A stretch of DNA of 39,492 nucleotides, from NCBI RefSeq assembly GCF_007997295.1, contig NZ_VORY01000026.1:1-39492 (forward strand). Reading direction: 5' to 3'. The translations under genes were made by a program, and so were the position numbers. The notes beneath the pieces are model-generated. The model had not been told where the DNA came from, searched no databases, and saw only the letters and a program-made list of their open reading frames with translations. Shown here one piece after another: positions 3,485 through 39,492 of this stretch (within the stretch, counting starts at the first letter, position 1; each line of letters starts with the position of its first letter). Origin of the DNA: Gillisia hiemivivida. Its GTDB lineage: Bacteria > Bacteroidota > Bacteroidia > Flavobacteriales > Flavobacteriaceae.

Positions 3485-4000
3485 ATGAGAATTAAAAAAA
3501 TAATTCGGGCGGTTTTAATTTGACTACCTTCTATAATGATATCTATGATTTTTATCCAAAACGGATTAGGAAAAATATTTCACTCCAATCAAATGGATAA
3601 AATTATTACAAATAATACGATAATAATTATCGTTGGAATTATTCTACTTATAGCAACTGCTTTGTTCTTATTTAATCCCTCATTGAGGGTTTAATTCCCC
3701 GAGGCCTGCCCGAAACATTCAGGCGGGCTTGCCTCGATTTTTTAAAAGTATTTTCCTCCCGAACCATCGGGACATACCTCGTGGGCCCGCCCGTACCGTT
3801 CGGGCGGGCTTGCCACAAGGTTCTTGATTAAAACTATAATTTTGAGAACGACTCTTTTAGCATTATATATGACATTTATAGTTTTTATTCATATATCTAA
3901 AGAGAAGCCATTTGAAGTTGTAGCTATTATTGTATTGGCTACAATTTTTGCAGCATATATTAGACAACCACAACTATTCCATCAGAAACACAATCAATAA
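3485..4000 (+). pseudogene. Small multi-span membrane protein, split by a repeat element
   Basis: Joining 3485-3673 to 3830-4000 gives one frame of about 119 codons with four hydrophobic segments: one around the ATG at 3536, then IIIIVGIILLIATALFLF, then LLALYMTFIVFIHI, then VVAIIVLATIFAAYI, ending at TAA 3998-4000. The frame is broken twice: a TGA at 3521-3523 (bypassed if translation starts at ATG 3536) and a 156-bp element at 3674-3829, which brings its own stops. The family is not recognised. Junction codons are TTT|AAA, with nothing gained or lost around the insertion. Confidence 0.65.
3674..3829 (-). repeat. Hairpin-rich AATC/GATT element, copy C (longest, 156 bp)
   Basis: Read on the minus strand it begins AATCAAGAACCTTGTGGC and ends CTCAATGAGGGATT. 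It holds a perfect 9-bp GC stem (GCCCGCCCG 785-793 with CGGGCGGGC 801-809, counting from 3000), a second imperfect stem GCCCGCCTGAA/TTCGGGCAGGC, and a smaller CCCGA/TCGGG hairpin. The 98-bp copies B and A match it but lack the GC hairpins. Alternating GC hairpins with short conserved ends resemble REP/BIME-like sequences. It interrupts the membrane protein gene without a target duplication. Confidence 0.85.
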
Positions 4001-4973: not shown

Positions 4974-5428
4974 ATGATTAAGAATTATGTCAGATTATTT
5001 ACGATTTTAATATTGTTGAGTTCGTGTGAAAAATCAAGAACCTCGGGGCAAGTCCACGAGGTATCAACTGGAAATTACTTTTAAAAATTCGAGGCAAGTC
5101 TCGAGGAATTAAACCCTCAATGAGGGATTCAACTGATAAAAAAGAAGTTACAATTGATAATTTCGATAAAAAATTCATCGATAGTTTAATCCCAAATCCT
5201 GATGAAAACTATTCAGTTTTTTATGCTAAAATTAAAGGTTACTCAAATGATAAAATTAGATTGAGTATAAGCCCCGTCAAAATCGAAAATCCAGAAAGCT
5301 ATTACTATTTCATCGGAGATTTTGAAGAGGAAGTCAGACTTGATTATTATGGTGAGTCGAATAAATATATATCTTTTGATCCGTATAAAGCGACTCAAGG
5401 AAAGGTGAAATTGAAGTACCAATTATAA
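4974..5428 (+). pseudogene. Lipoprotein gene split by a 98-bp repeat element
   Basis: The ATG at 4974 (or in-frame ATG at 4965) starts a lipoprotein signal peptide, IKNYVRLFTILILLSSCE, with the lipid-bearing Cys at 5025-5027. Immediately after it a 98-bp element (5032-5129) intervenes. Beyond the element the frame goes on as TTDKKEVTIDNFDKKFIDSL to a TAA at 5426-5428, giving about 119 residues in all. The join A|CA restores a Thr codon, so the original gene was cut cleanly. The mature part is an unknown beta-rich domain. The element supplies an ATG at 5120, so an unexported product could still be made. Confidence 0.75.
5032..5129 (+). repeat. Hairpin-rich AATC/GATT element, copy B (98 bp)
   Basis: Starts AATCAAGAACCTCGGGGC and ends CTCAATGAGGGATT. 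It differs from copy A (21320-21417) at only a handful of positions over the same 98 bp, and matches copy C except for C's extra GC hairpins. It lies inside a lipoprotein gene just after the lipobox. No target duplication flanks it: left flank TGTGAAA, right flank CAACTGA. It has stops in the host frame. Confidence 0.9.
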
Positions 5429-5436
5429 AATTCTTA

Positions 5437-5592
5437 TAAACACTAGCAACAATATCAAATATCCCAAATAGCAGCGTTTGATTTAAAAGTGATGTTTTAG
5501 ATCTAAATTAACAAACAGCTAAGCCAACAATCCCAATAGATAGCGCTATGTGTTCCAACTCTAGGCCACTTGTGGAAAGCAAAACCGAGAGA
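5437..5592 (+). repeat. About 150-bp intergenic repeat, copy R3
   Basis: Starts TAAACACT, 8 bp after the stop of the broken lipoprotein gene. Block A reads CAAATAGCAGCGTTTGA then AAAAGTGATGTTTTAG; block B reads CAGCTAAGCCAACAATCCCA; block C is partly kept (GTTCCAACTCTAGGCCACTTG). Same orientation as the other copies. Confidence 0.7.
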
Positions 5593-9721: not shown

Positions 9722-10183
9722 GGCATAGCAAAAATAAGGTTATAGAATCATTAAATCTAAATATTTATTTTTATTTGTTTATTTGATTTTATTATATGTT
9801 AAACAAAAGATAGTGTCATTTTGTAATTACTGTAGAATCCAAAAAACAAACTTCTTTTGACTGCAGATATCACCAATTTAAACAGTTGACATCCAATTAC
9901 ATTATGTGCAATTCCTTATATATAACTTTATTAATCTTTAAAATAAGCGGGATTAATTTTGGACTATTTTAAAAATGAAAGTTTCGTGTAAGTGAAAATT
10001 AGAAACAAAAAAAGAATAATAGTATAAGTATAATCCAGACTTAACTTAACTCTAGTATATTGCATTAATAAAGTATTATTATGAAATGAGCATAACGCCA
10101 ATAGGATAAAAACACCGATGAAGATATGCGAATTGCTAAAGATAGCTTTCGAGAGACCATTATAAAACAATAAATATCAACAT
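9722..10183. other. AT-rich intergenic region between ubiA-like gene and 74-aa gene
   Basis: This holds the divergent upstream regions of the two flanking genes. On the minus strand TATTTTTG (9729-9736) fits a TAnnTTTG -7 box, but it sits only 7 bp before the start codon of the UbiA gene and no -33 partner is seen. Short reading frames on the minus strand here have low-complexity Phe/Leu/Tyr content and no coding signs. Confidence 0.3.
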
Positions 10184-10408
10184 ATGAAATTAAACTTATT
10201 GTCCTGTCATGCTCAGAGACCAGATAGAAGAGCGATAGCGAATTGTATTGCAGAAATTTCAACTAACATCGATGAATCATTGTCAAATGAACTTACAGAT
10301 CTCCTCCTAGAAGGAGACGCTGTAGATATTGAGATGGAAGATAAAAATACTGGTTCTGCTTTAAGAGCTTTGCGAAAATTAAGTATTGACTACGAAATTA
10401 TAGAATGA
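10184..10408 (+). CDS. Hypothetical 74-aa protein
   Basis: ATG 10184 to TGA 10406-10408. The product is soluble and acidic, with RRAIANCIAEISTNIDES, a leucine-rich acidic helix (NELTDLLLEGDAVDIEME) and TGSALRALRKLSIDYEI. The balanced composition and amphipathic helices look like a real small protein, perhaps an alpha/beta regulator, but I do not recognise the family. A symmetric hairpin follows the stop codon at once (10409-10430), which supports a monocistronic transcript. Confidence 0.55.
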   Translation: MKLNLLSCHAQRPDRRAIANCIAEISTNIDESLSNELTDLLLEGDAVDIEMEDKNTGSALRALRKLSIDYEIIE

Positions 10409-10670: not shown

Positions 10671-10826
10671 TGTTGCCAAAGCAGGTAACATCGATTAGGG
10701 CAAATAGTGGATCTTCCAATGAAAAGTGATATTTTAGAGACCCAGTAACAAAAAAGTAAGCCAACAATTCCAATAGCTACTGGGTCGTGTCCCCAATCCA
10801 CGCTAATTGCGTTAACCAAGATCTTT
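10671..10826 (+). repeat. About 150-bp intergenic repeat, copy R4
   Basis: Left end TGTTGCCAAAGCAGGTAACA, then block A (CAAATAGTGGATCTTCCAA, AAAAGTGATATTTTAG), block B (AGTAAGCCAACAATTCCAA followed by the near palindrome CCAATAGCTACTGG) and block C (GTGTCCCCAATCCACGC, GTTAACCAAGATC). Between 10431 and 10670 there is no gene; a short CTCCTACTCCACTCC stretch there resembles block C. Confidence 0.75.
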
Positions 10827-11504: not shown

Positions 11505-11723
11505 ATTGTCGTCTGACAAAAGATATAAGATCGCTGCGCTACTAGATTCAAGACGTAAGACTTTTTTCCAACTAATTGAAAATCATTATTTTAATCTGTA
11601 TAAATTTTTCAAAAAGGAAAAAATAATTCTGTGTTCTAATAGCAAGCTCCTAAACATTGAAAACATTCTTAATCCACGTTTCTTCTAGCCTCATCGAAAT
11701 CCTGAATTTTTTACCGGACAATA
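11505..11723 (+). repeat. Dispersed repeat E, copy 1, with a possible short ORF (11506-11688)
   Basis: 121 bp from ATTGTCGTCTGACAAAAG match 39372-39492 with six differences, while the left flanks differ. The left end has the palindrome TTGTC/GACAA, and ACCGGACAATA at 11713-11723 may be a matching inverted right end, giving about 219 bp. In the frame beginning with TTG at 11506 (SSDKRYKIAALLDSRRKT...), five of the six differences fall at third codon positions, which hints at past or present coding selection. The frame stops at TAG 11686-11688. The family is unknown. Confidence 0.6.
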
Positions 11724-20896: not shown

Positions 20897-20914
20897 TTAT
20901 TTTACTAATTGATC

Positions 20915-20940
20915 AAGGCAACATATAAAAGTGTTGCCTT
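20915..20940 (+). terminator. Hairpin after aceA
   Basis: AAGGCAACA and TGTTGCCTT are perfect 9-bp arms around TATAAAAG, 18 bp after the aceA stop. Only two T of the right arm precede AGTC, so it may act as a partial terminator or 3'-end stabiliser before the broken rraA gene. Confidence 0.55.
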
Positions 20941-20974
20941 AGTCAATATTAGTAAATTAAACACTACTTGTAGT

Positions 20975-21549
20975 ATGTTTACAACAGCAGACCTTTGGGA
21001 TGAGTATGAAGAACTTCTAAGATGTGTTGACTCAATTTTTAATCATTTTGGAAAGAAAAAAGCGTTTTTTGGAAAAATCACAACTCTAAAGTTGTTTGAA
21101 GACAACTCCTTAGTGCGAAAACAATTAGAATCTAACGGGAAAGGCAAAGTACTTGTCATAGACGGGGGTGGTTCATTGCGTTGTGCATTAATAGGTGATC
21201 AGCTAGCTGCACTGGCAATACATAATAATTGGAATGGCATTATTGTAAATGGGTGTATTCGTGATAGTCAACTAATTAATTCCATGTAAACAGGTATAAG
21301 AGCTCTAAATACTTCTCCAAATCAAGAACCTCGGGGCAAGCCCACGAGGTATGAATTGGAAAATACTTTTAAAAATTCGAGGCAAGTCTCGGGGAATTAA
21401 ACCCTCAATGAGGGATTAAAAGTATTAAACGCAATATTGGAGAAATAGATATTCCAGTTAAAATTGGAGGTGTTTATTTTAATTCAGATGACTATATTTA
21501 TGTAGATACAGATGGGATACTTGTTAGCAAACTTAATTTGAAGAAATAA
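20975..21549 (+). pseudogene. RraA-family aldolase gene broken by a stop and by a repeat
   Basis: From ATG 20975 the frame reads [19 protein letters not shown], then [20 protein letters not shown] (the RraA Asp/Gly/Arg site) and [11 protein letters not shown]. An in-frame TAA (21287-21289) follows SM; the same frame continues TGIRALNTSP, is then split by a 98-bp element (21320-21417), and resumes KSIKRNIGEIDIPVKIGGVY...DGILVSKLNLKK to TAA 21547-21549. All parts match RraA in order. RraA-family proteins are class II aldolases acting on 2-oxo acids or, in E. coli, RNase E inhibitors. Between glyoxylate genes an aldolase role is the better guess. The truncated product lacks the C-terminal third. 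Confidence 0.85.
21320..21417 (+). repeat. Hairpin-rich AATC/GATT element, copy A (98 bp)
   Basis: Starts AATCAAGAACCTCGGGGC and ends CTCAATGAGGGATT, the same length as copy B. It sits inside the rraA frame between CCA (Pro) and AAA (Lys). Deleting exactly these 98 bases gives ...TSPKSIKRNIGE..., as expected for RraA, so insertion caused neither duplication nor loss. Stem CGAGG...CCTCGGGG-type pairings remain, but the long GC hairpins of copy C are absent. Confidence 0.92.
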
Positions 21550-30269: not shown

Positions 30270-30425
30270 TCAGCACAAGATCGGTTATATCAAAAAGCTG
30301 GCATTTCAGTGAAAAGTGATATATTCTAGTCCAAATATCAAAACACTAAGTCTAAAATCGCGAGAACTATCGTTAAGTGTCCCTACTGCACGCATCTTGG
30401 ATTAACCAAGACCTTTGGTAATCAT
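30270..30425 (+). repeat. About 150-bp intergenic repeat, copy R7
   Basis: Starts within 5 bp of the exchanger stop. Block A: AAAAAGCTGGCATTTCAG then AAAAGTGATATATTCTAG; block B: CACTAAGTCTAAAATCGCGA then GAACTATCG; block C: GTGTCCCTACTGCACGC, GATTAACCAAGACCTTTGG. Same orientation as the others. Confidence 0.7.
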
Positions 30426-31785: not shown

Positions 31786-32074
31786 TGAAAAGAAACACGA
31801 ATAAACAAAATTAGTTACCTGTTTAATATGGACTATTATATTTATGCTTTTCATGTCAAAAACATAAATTGAGTAAAAATGCCAATAGTCATTAAAGCAT
31901 ATAAAACACTTCGATAAGTTGAAACAAATTTAATGGTCAAAAAAAGCGTGGACCAATAATCTATGTGGCAAAAACATGTATCTTTAAATTCATAAAAGTG
32001 GAGACTAGAAATCACTTAAAAAACGGGGCGAAACCGAAAAGCCAAATGATTAGGAAATTATCATAAGTAAAAAA

Positions 32075-39371: not shown

Positions 39372-39492
39372 ATTGTCGTCCGACAAAAGATATAAGATCG
39401 CTGCGCTGCTAGATTCAAGACGTAAGACTTTATTCCAACTAATTGAAAATCACTATTTTAATATGTATAAATTTTTCAAAAAAGAAAAAATA
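39372..39492 (+). repeat. Dispersed repeat E, copy 2 (cut by window end)
   Basis: Starts ATTGTCGTCCGACAAAAG and matches 11505-11625 over all 121 bp available, with six substitutions. Five are at the third position of the frame starting TTG 39373 (SSDKRYKIAALLDSRRKT). The left flanks of the two copies are unrelated, so the left boundary is sharp. The repeat continues beyond the window. Confidence 0.75.

Follow-up and report, generated by a model that had tools for sequence, protein, structure and literature searches.

The window, by which we mean the whole analysed stretch of 39,492 nt (contig C19 of the Gillisia hiemivivida draft genome), carries four copies of a short, hairpin-bearing repeat. 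The end motif CAATGAGGGATT occurs in it four times at up to one mismatch, compared with 0.27 matches expected. Three of these matches belong to the copies listed in a preliminary description, whose coordinates, strands and lengths (98, 98 and 156 nt) were all borne out: copy A (5032..5129, + strand), copy B (21320..21417, + strand) and copy C (3674..3829, - strand). The fourth, absent from that list, marks a copy at about 213-336 of the + strand (left edge approximate), which has lost its 5' part and holds hairpins in the spacer, the H2 tip and the linker. Copies A and B each represent a net insertion of 95 nt; copy C carries extra hairpins in the H1 tip, the spacer and the H2 tip. Within copy B, H1 with its CAAG loop (21328..21350, + strand) shows compensatory changes across genera; H2 (21378..21391, + strand) and the GGGGAATTAAACCC following it are common to an insertion sequence of G. 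limnaea; H3, CCCTCAATGAGGG (21402..21414, + strand), adjoins the target and was seen in none of the insertion sequences read. The target pentanucleotide TTTAA (TTAAA on the + strand) lies on the conserved side, at 21416..21420 of the - strand. The corresponding target of copy C is TTTAA at 3671-3675 of the + strand, and the target side of copy A reads TTGAA on the - strand.

Copy B interrupts an rraA-like gene, the 5' part of which extends over 20909..21289 (+ strand) and which, by comparison with Gillisia sp. LH_M84 (G012), resumes past the copy to about 21549. Since an in-frame stop is also present upstream of the insertion, this gene (20909-21549) looks like a decaying one. All three listed copies had been placed inside genes. 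This holds for copy B, where an rraA homologue spans the site in LH_M84, and is well supported for copy A, located within a lipoprotein-like gene with a homologue in genome G009; for copy C the evidence consists of a 107-codon open frame across the joined site, no empty homologue having been found.

The window contains further repeated DNA. A second family of 127 nt is present in five copies (1363-1489, 2420-2546, 5463-5589, 10700-10826 and 30290-30416) with 63-76% identity to a reference copy, and a 121-nt repeat occurs at 11505-11625 and 39372-39492 (95% identical), the latter reaching the contig edge. The stretches at about 10079-10189 and 10687-10821 are probably further repeats, because they have many matches of 72-85% identity in Gillisia relatives. 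A DUF805 cis-regulatory RNA lies at 31993-32060 (80 bits).

The boundaries of the element were derived from empty sites at five loci, at which left flank-NTT-right flank corresponds to left flank-AATC...GGGATT-right flank in the filled state, without duplication. The empty counterpart of copy B in LH_M84 reads cttctcca-GTT-aaaag, one codon more than the join proposed earlier. The other four have ATT: copy A in G009 (distant, 75% identity), where the length of the homologue fits only if ATT is kept; L135:14933 in LH_M84; L138:2498 in LH_M84 and Gillisia sp. CAL575 (G006); and L138:7003 in these two and in G014. Three bases (NTT) thus belong to the target, so that a 98-nt copy adds 95 nt and, in general, the net gain equals the previously given length minus 3 nt. 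In the AATC/GATT ends given previously, the terminal TT (21416-21417 in copy B) are target bases, and the first A probably is one as well. The base ahead of TT is A at four empty sites and G at the 21320 site, with A in the filled state there. Either the target prefers A at this position and one substitution has occurred, or the base comes from the element and has displaced one of the target. Deletion of AATC...GATT had been reported to restore an open frame at each copy. The frame is indeed the same, since the error amounts to one codon, but the bases so joined are separated by three others in LH_M84 and G009, which merely shifts the boundary.

The absence of target duplication, also claimed before, was confirmed at the five loci and for a nested copy, whose older host element is retained in G006 and G014; at another nested copy, L007, the boundary is off by one. 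At four further sites the left side does not give a clean junction: L133:13386 has 5 extra nt, L133:11299 has 218 nt of another repeat, 16 nt are absent at L138:15441, and unrelated DNA is found at L135:16756. All four retain TTAAA on the right in LH_M84, and no duplication was seen. One-ended transposition was considered for the 218 nt at L133:11299 and rejected, as these bases resemble other repeated DNA; the segment L133 11081-11299, beside an element copy, is similar to other repeated DNA of the same genome.

The flanks are asymmetric. Among 83 listed copies (82 distinct ones, the L007 copy being listed twice), A predominates at the three positions following GATT (frequencies of.90,.98 and.94); no consensus is apparent in the ten bases at the opposite side of the element. 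On the other strand the conserved flank reads TTTAA, followed by the element. Likewise, in G036, a complete genome from another genus, TTTA precedes 17 of 17 copies, and the sequence past the far end varies. The element hence has a fixed tetra- or pentanucleotide target on one side and inserts 3' to it: insertion is at TTTAA, without duplication, and with a target consensus on the TTTAA side only. On this strand the layout is TTTAA ^ TCCCTCATTGAGGGTTTAATTCCCC-[H2]...[H1]-TTCTTGAT ^. Inspection by eye revealed no evident Watson-Crick guide for TTTAA.

The genome holds roughly a hundred copies, if not more. A search of the 3.73-Mb genome (56 contigs) with the 21-nt end core yielded 146 matches at up to 2 mismatches, some of them perhaps counted on both strands as the core is nearly palindromic; 100 were listed, and 83 among these are exact. 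The reversed core gave 0 matches in this genome, LH_M84 and CAL575. By DNA search 46 matching pieces were recovered from the same genome. Repeat length ranges from 40 to 186 nt, 98 nt being commonest. The 21-nt core is also found 20 times in LH_M84 (65% complete) and 16 times in CAL575. Matches to the element exist in 18 of 60 genomes searched, its own included, some being short pieces only, and a 25-nt core was located in 62 stretches belonging to records of Salegentibacter, Gillisia, Gramella, Galbibacter, Aquimarina, Maribacter and Gelidibacter as well as of MAGs. In alignment A2 the final 23 nt are invariant by construction for the loci found with that pattern; this invariance was not used as evidence. 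The 17 copies in G036 represent a diverged version with the terminal hairpin TTGGCACCGCCAA, and 13 of them are identical across a 28-nt probe. We found no description of this repeat family in open-licence full texts, a collection to which most subscription journals do not belong; a review of MITEs (PMC10969869) does not mention IS200, IS605, PATE, Bacteroid or Flavobacter.

The 98-mer folds better than its shuffled versions (z of -2.8 to -2.9 as RNA and -2.8 as DNA), and so does copy C, with z of -6.3 as DNA. The hairpins are located near the termini, and real terminal inverted repeats are lacking; the 4-nt match AATC/GATT includes target bases. In 15 sequences (6 elements and 9 insertion sequences) the pairs of H1 covary: 94.8% are paired, and 23 cells with double changes compare with 6.4 in shuffles, none of 500 shuffles reaching as high. 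A known RNA family was rejected as an explanation, the window's sole match at gathering score falling elsewhere; in four copy-bearing loci a Hatchet match stayed below threshold (25 bits, cut-off 51) and lies outside the element.

Internally the element is modular. It has four slots for hairpins, namely the H1 tip, the spacer, the H2 tip and the linker, and at least 10 of 16 combinations were seen in the 64 of 83 rows that could be parsed, two further classes (L007 117 and L150 111) having been excluded as mis-parsed. Copies of 40 nt without any slot hairpin also occur. We rejected the idea that the internal hairpins are independent mobile units, as in 300,412 bases (40 stretches of the G. hiemivivida genome plus the window) no module of the H1, H2 or linker type was met outside the element context; in these bases three spacer-type TCCCGA...TCGGGA hairpins lie outside elements, in other repeats. 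At one orthologous site (L023 and L090) G. hiemivivida and LH_M84 have different H2 modules. This suggests exchange in place, although independent insertions at one site may have produced it. In two of the 17 G036 copies (L290 and L291), an unrelated hairpin of about 35 nt was noticed by eye in the H2 tip, beside a repeated GCTTGCC.

It had been proposed that the element hits genes unusually often. The family as a whole contradicts this: joining the flanks yields an open frame of 100 codons or longer in 4 of 81 copies. Control sites taken from the same stretches gave 46% for ATTAAA sites (717) and 60% for random sites (2400). Because of this difference, the family either stays out of genes or is removed from them after insertion, and the three listed copies of the window are exceptions. 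The copy at 21320, whose gene has an extra stop, is by comparison a fifth in-gene copy. A preference for intrinsic terminators, hinted at by a few copies beside T-runs, gained no support: 14% of 81 copies have a hairpin next to the target, as do 16% of 532 control sites.

Orientation of the copies follows replication. In G036, 17 of 17 copies are oriented against the local GC skew (P 7.6e-6). In a second complete genome, G002, 20 of 38 copies had this orientation in an initial test that used 20 samples; the profile was noisy, and therefore a denser sampling was made after this result was known. With 40 samples, GC skew gave 31-33 of 38 and third-position skew 33-34 of 38, depending on the radius. 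The rRNA copies, three in each of the two genomes, all agree with the assigned leading strand (6 of 6). It follows that the TTTAA strand has the sequence of the leading strand and is the lagging-strand template, and the orientation in both complete genomes fits insertion into that template. In the G. hiemivivida draft, 71 of 91 copies (89 of the 100 listed core matches, on contigs with at least 2, plus 2 from the DNA search) lie on the majority strand of their contig, compared with 61 expected; 9 of 5000 shuffles were as high.

A potential source of transposase was found in G. limnaea (DSM 15749; G001), a genome which, like CAL575 and LH_M84, showed full identity to its named record at the loci compared. 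Of 11 Y1 hits in this genome, seven consist of a 172-aa open frame between H1 and H2. The 21 nt of H1 are identical in all seven and the 27 nt of H2 in six, the remaining copy having one mismatch; two other Y1 loci that were examined are devoid of H1 and H2. Four of the seven, when aligned, measure 557-561 bp and end with AATAGAGATT ahead of AAA (GATT-AAA). The protein scores 115 bits with Pfam Y1_Tnp and 116 bits with the NCBIfam IS200/IS605 transposase, and it matches solved transposases, one PDB chain of which is labelled ISHp608 transposase. H1 and H2 are therefore the end hairpins of an insertion sequence coding for a Y1 transposase. The preliminary description had called for a Y1 (RAYT) gene flanked by the same hairpins; such a gene exists, in seven copies and of the IS200 type, in G. 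limnaea, and none was found in G. hiemivivida, where the loci of the three Y1 hits lack the element hairpins and a genome-wide search at 1e-25 recovered no protein resembling that of G. limnaea. At the same threshold homologues of this protein were detected in 15 of 299 sampled genomes of the bacterial family. Across 30 homologue loci, several cut by contig ends, RE-like ends were present in 19, LE-like ends (GGGGAATTAAACCCTAAGAGATT-AAA type) in 5 and both in 2, the motifs having been chosen after some of the loci had been seen. Among 26 other Y1 loci one had an RE-like and three an LE-like end, none of these three being followed by GATTAAA. A tnpA pseudogene at G002:4060934, situated between two copies, was considered and dismissed as a mere neighbour.

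Copies are present together with 0 Y1 hits in G036, G004, G006, G012 and G014. One may thus ask if in G036 and similar genomes a non-Y1 enzyme moves the element, the ends common with G. limnaea being due to ancestry or capture; that G036 is complete and holds 13 copies identical over the probe, and that G006 and G014 are 99% complete, would speak for this. However, loss of a donor insertion sequence is the simpler assumption, and target form and polarity are as expected for the Y1 family, which makes such an enzyme very improbable.

The other possibility raised previously was a REP/BIME element with a RAYT (TnpA_REP) as its transposase. The repeats are short, palindromic, numerous and mostly outside open frames, and a single gene of the RAYT type, at L061, exists in G. 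hiemivivida (106 bits with NCBIfam REP-associated tyrosine transposase). Yet no GT[AG]G was seen by eye at the hairpin foot of the copies, and the hairpin-bearing protein of G. limnaea reaches just 24.5 bits with the REP type (cut-off 80). Furthermore, an unrelated repeat array of the GCACGGATT type lies downstream of the RAYT-type gene (L061 1405-1959), and the locus is without the element hairpin. We consider this origin hardly credible. Practically out of the question is a terminator or regulatory element placed by gene direction without any transposon: the hairpins, the intergenic location and an orientation against the strand that carries most genes locally (16 of 17 copies in G036; in G002 23-30 of 38 with 40 samples and 16 of 38 with 20) agree with it, but empty sites in relatives exclude it as the sole explanation, rraA is interrupted, hairpins are not in excess beside the target, and in G002, with 40 samples, skew is a better predictor of orientation than the gene strand. 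Among general classes, a classical MITE of a DDE transposase was rejected for want of long terminal inverted repeats and target duplication, and a Rickettsia-type in-frame palindromic element because the net 95 nt shift the frame and 4 of 81 copies lie in open frames.

Taken together, we regard the repeat, with a probability of roughly 0.86, as a non-autonomous offshoot of the IS200/IS605 family, derived from an IS200-type (tnpA-only) member and thus a palindrome-associated transposable element (PATE). Empty sites, the one-sided TTTAA, the ends common with a Y1 insertion sequence and the orientation all argue for it, and the IS200/IS605 half of the original proposal is thereby retained and its REP/RAYT half abandoned. 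The element probably spread via a borrowed IS200-type transposase during DNA replication, and we infer mobilisation in trans by a TnpA of the G. limnaea type. Such a Y1 TnpA would bind H1 and H2 on single-stranded DNA, excise the element and, within the lagging-strand template, place it on the 3' side of TTTAA. The hairpins of the interior may be gained, lost or swapped among copies while the ends stay fixed. A more far-reaching reading, which we think rather unlikely, sees a single-strand transposon without genes, whose evolution proceeds by exchange of hairpin cassettes at fixed internal slots and which can multiply in Y1-less genomes by means of a transient foreign transposase or an unrecognised enzyme. 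The family constitutes a countable natural record of single-strand transposition, with one target, a preferred fork polarity and empty sites in relatives, and its combinatorial internal hairpins between recognisable ends make it directly testable which hairpin is read by the transposase.

Several known systems invite comparison. Members of the IS200/IS605 family have a one-sided target, not duplicated, beside subterminal hairpins (PMC6006769, PMC7290912). The Gillisia element resembles IS608 and ISDra2 in its subterminal hairpins, the fixed flanking target on one side and the lagging-strand template, and differs in lacking an internal tnpA and in the additional H3 at the target side (PMC6006769). 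With REP/BIME-RAYT systems it has in common that it is palindromic, numerous and mostly extragenic (PMC3733652, PMC8266576; for REPINs PMC3116915), but no GTAG-type tag was seen in it and no associated RAYT was found. The PATEs of Haloquadratum walsbyi are described as having no terminal inverted repeats, target duplication or transposase, and as carrying IS605-related near-terminal palindromes, within which small repeats sit; their insertions vary among strains, though one strain has its IS200-type genes as pseudogenes (PMC3119063). The Gillisia element is like them in having near-terminal palindromes and in lacking terminal inverted repeats, transposase and target duplication. Unlike them, it resides in Flavobacteriaceae, its ends correspond to those of a tnpA-only insertion sequence in a related species, its internal modules are small hairpins and its replication polarity has been measured. 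The PATE-like element of Halanaerobium hydrogeniformans is likewise an ends-only derivative of IS605; one such element is reported there, together with IS605 copies showing no strand preference (10 of 22 on the leading strand; PMC7290912). The modular interior and the missing partner make the Gillisia element a variant among PATE-type derivatives.
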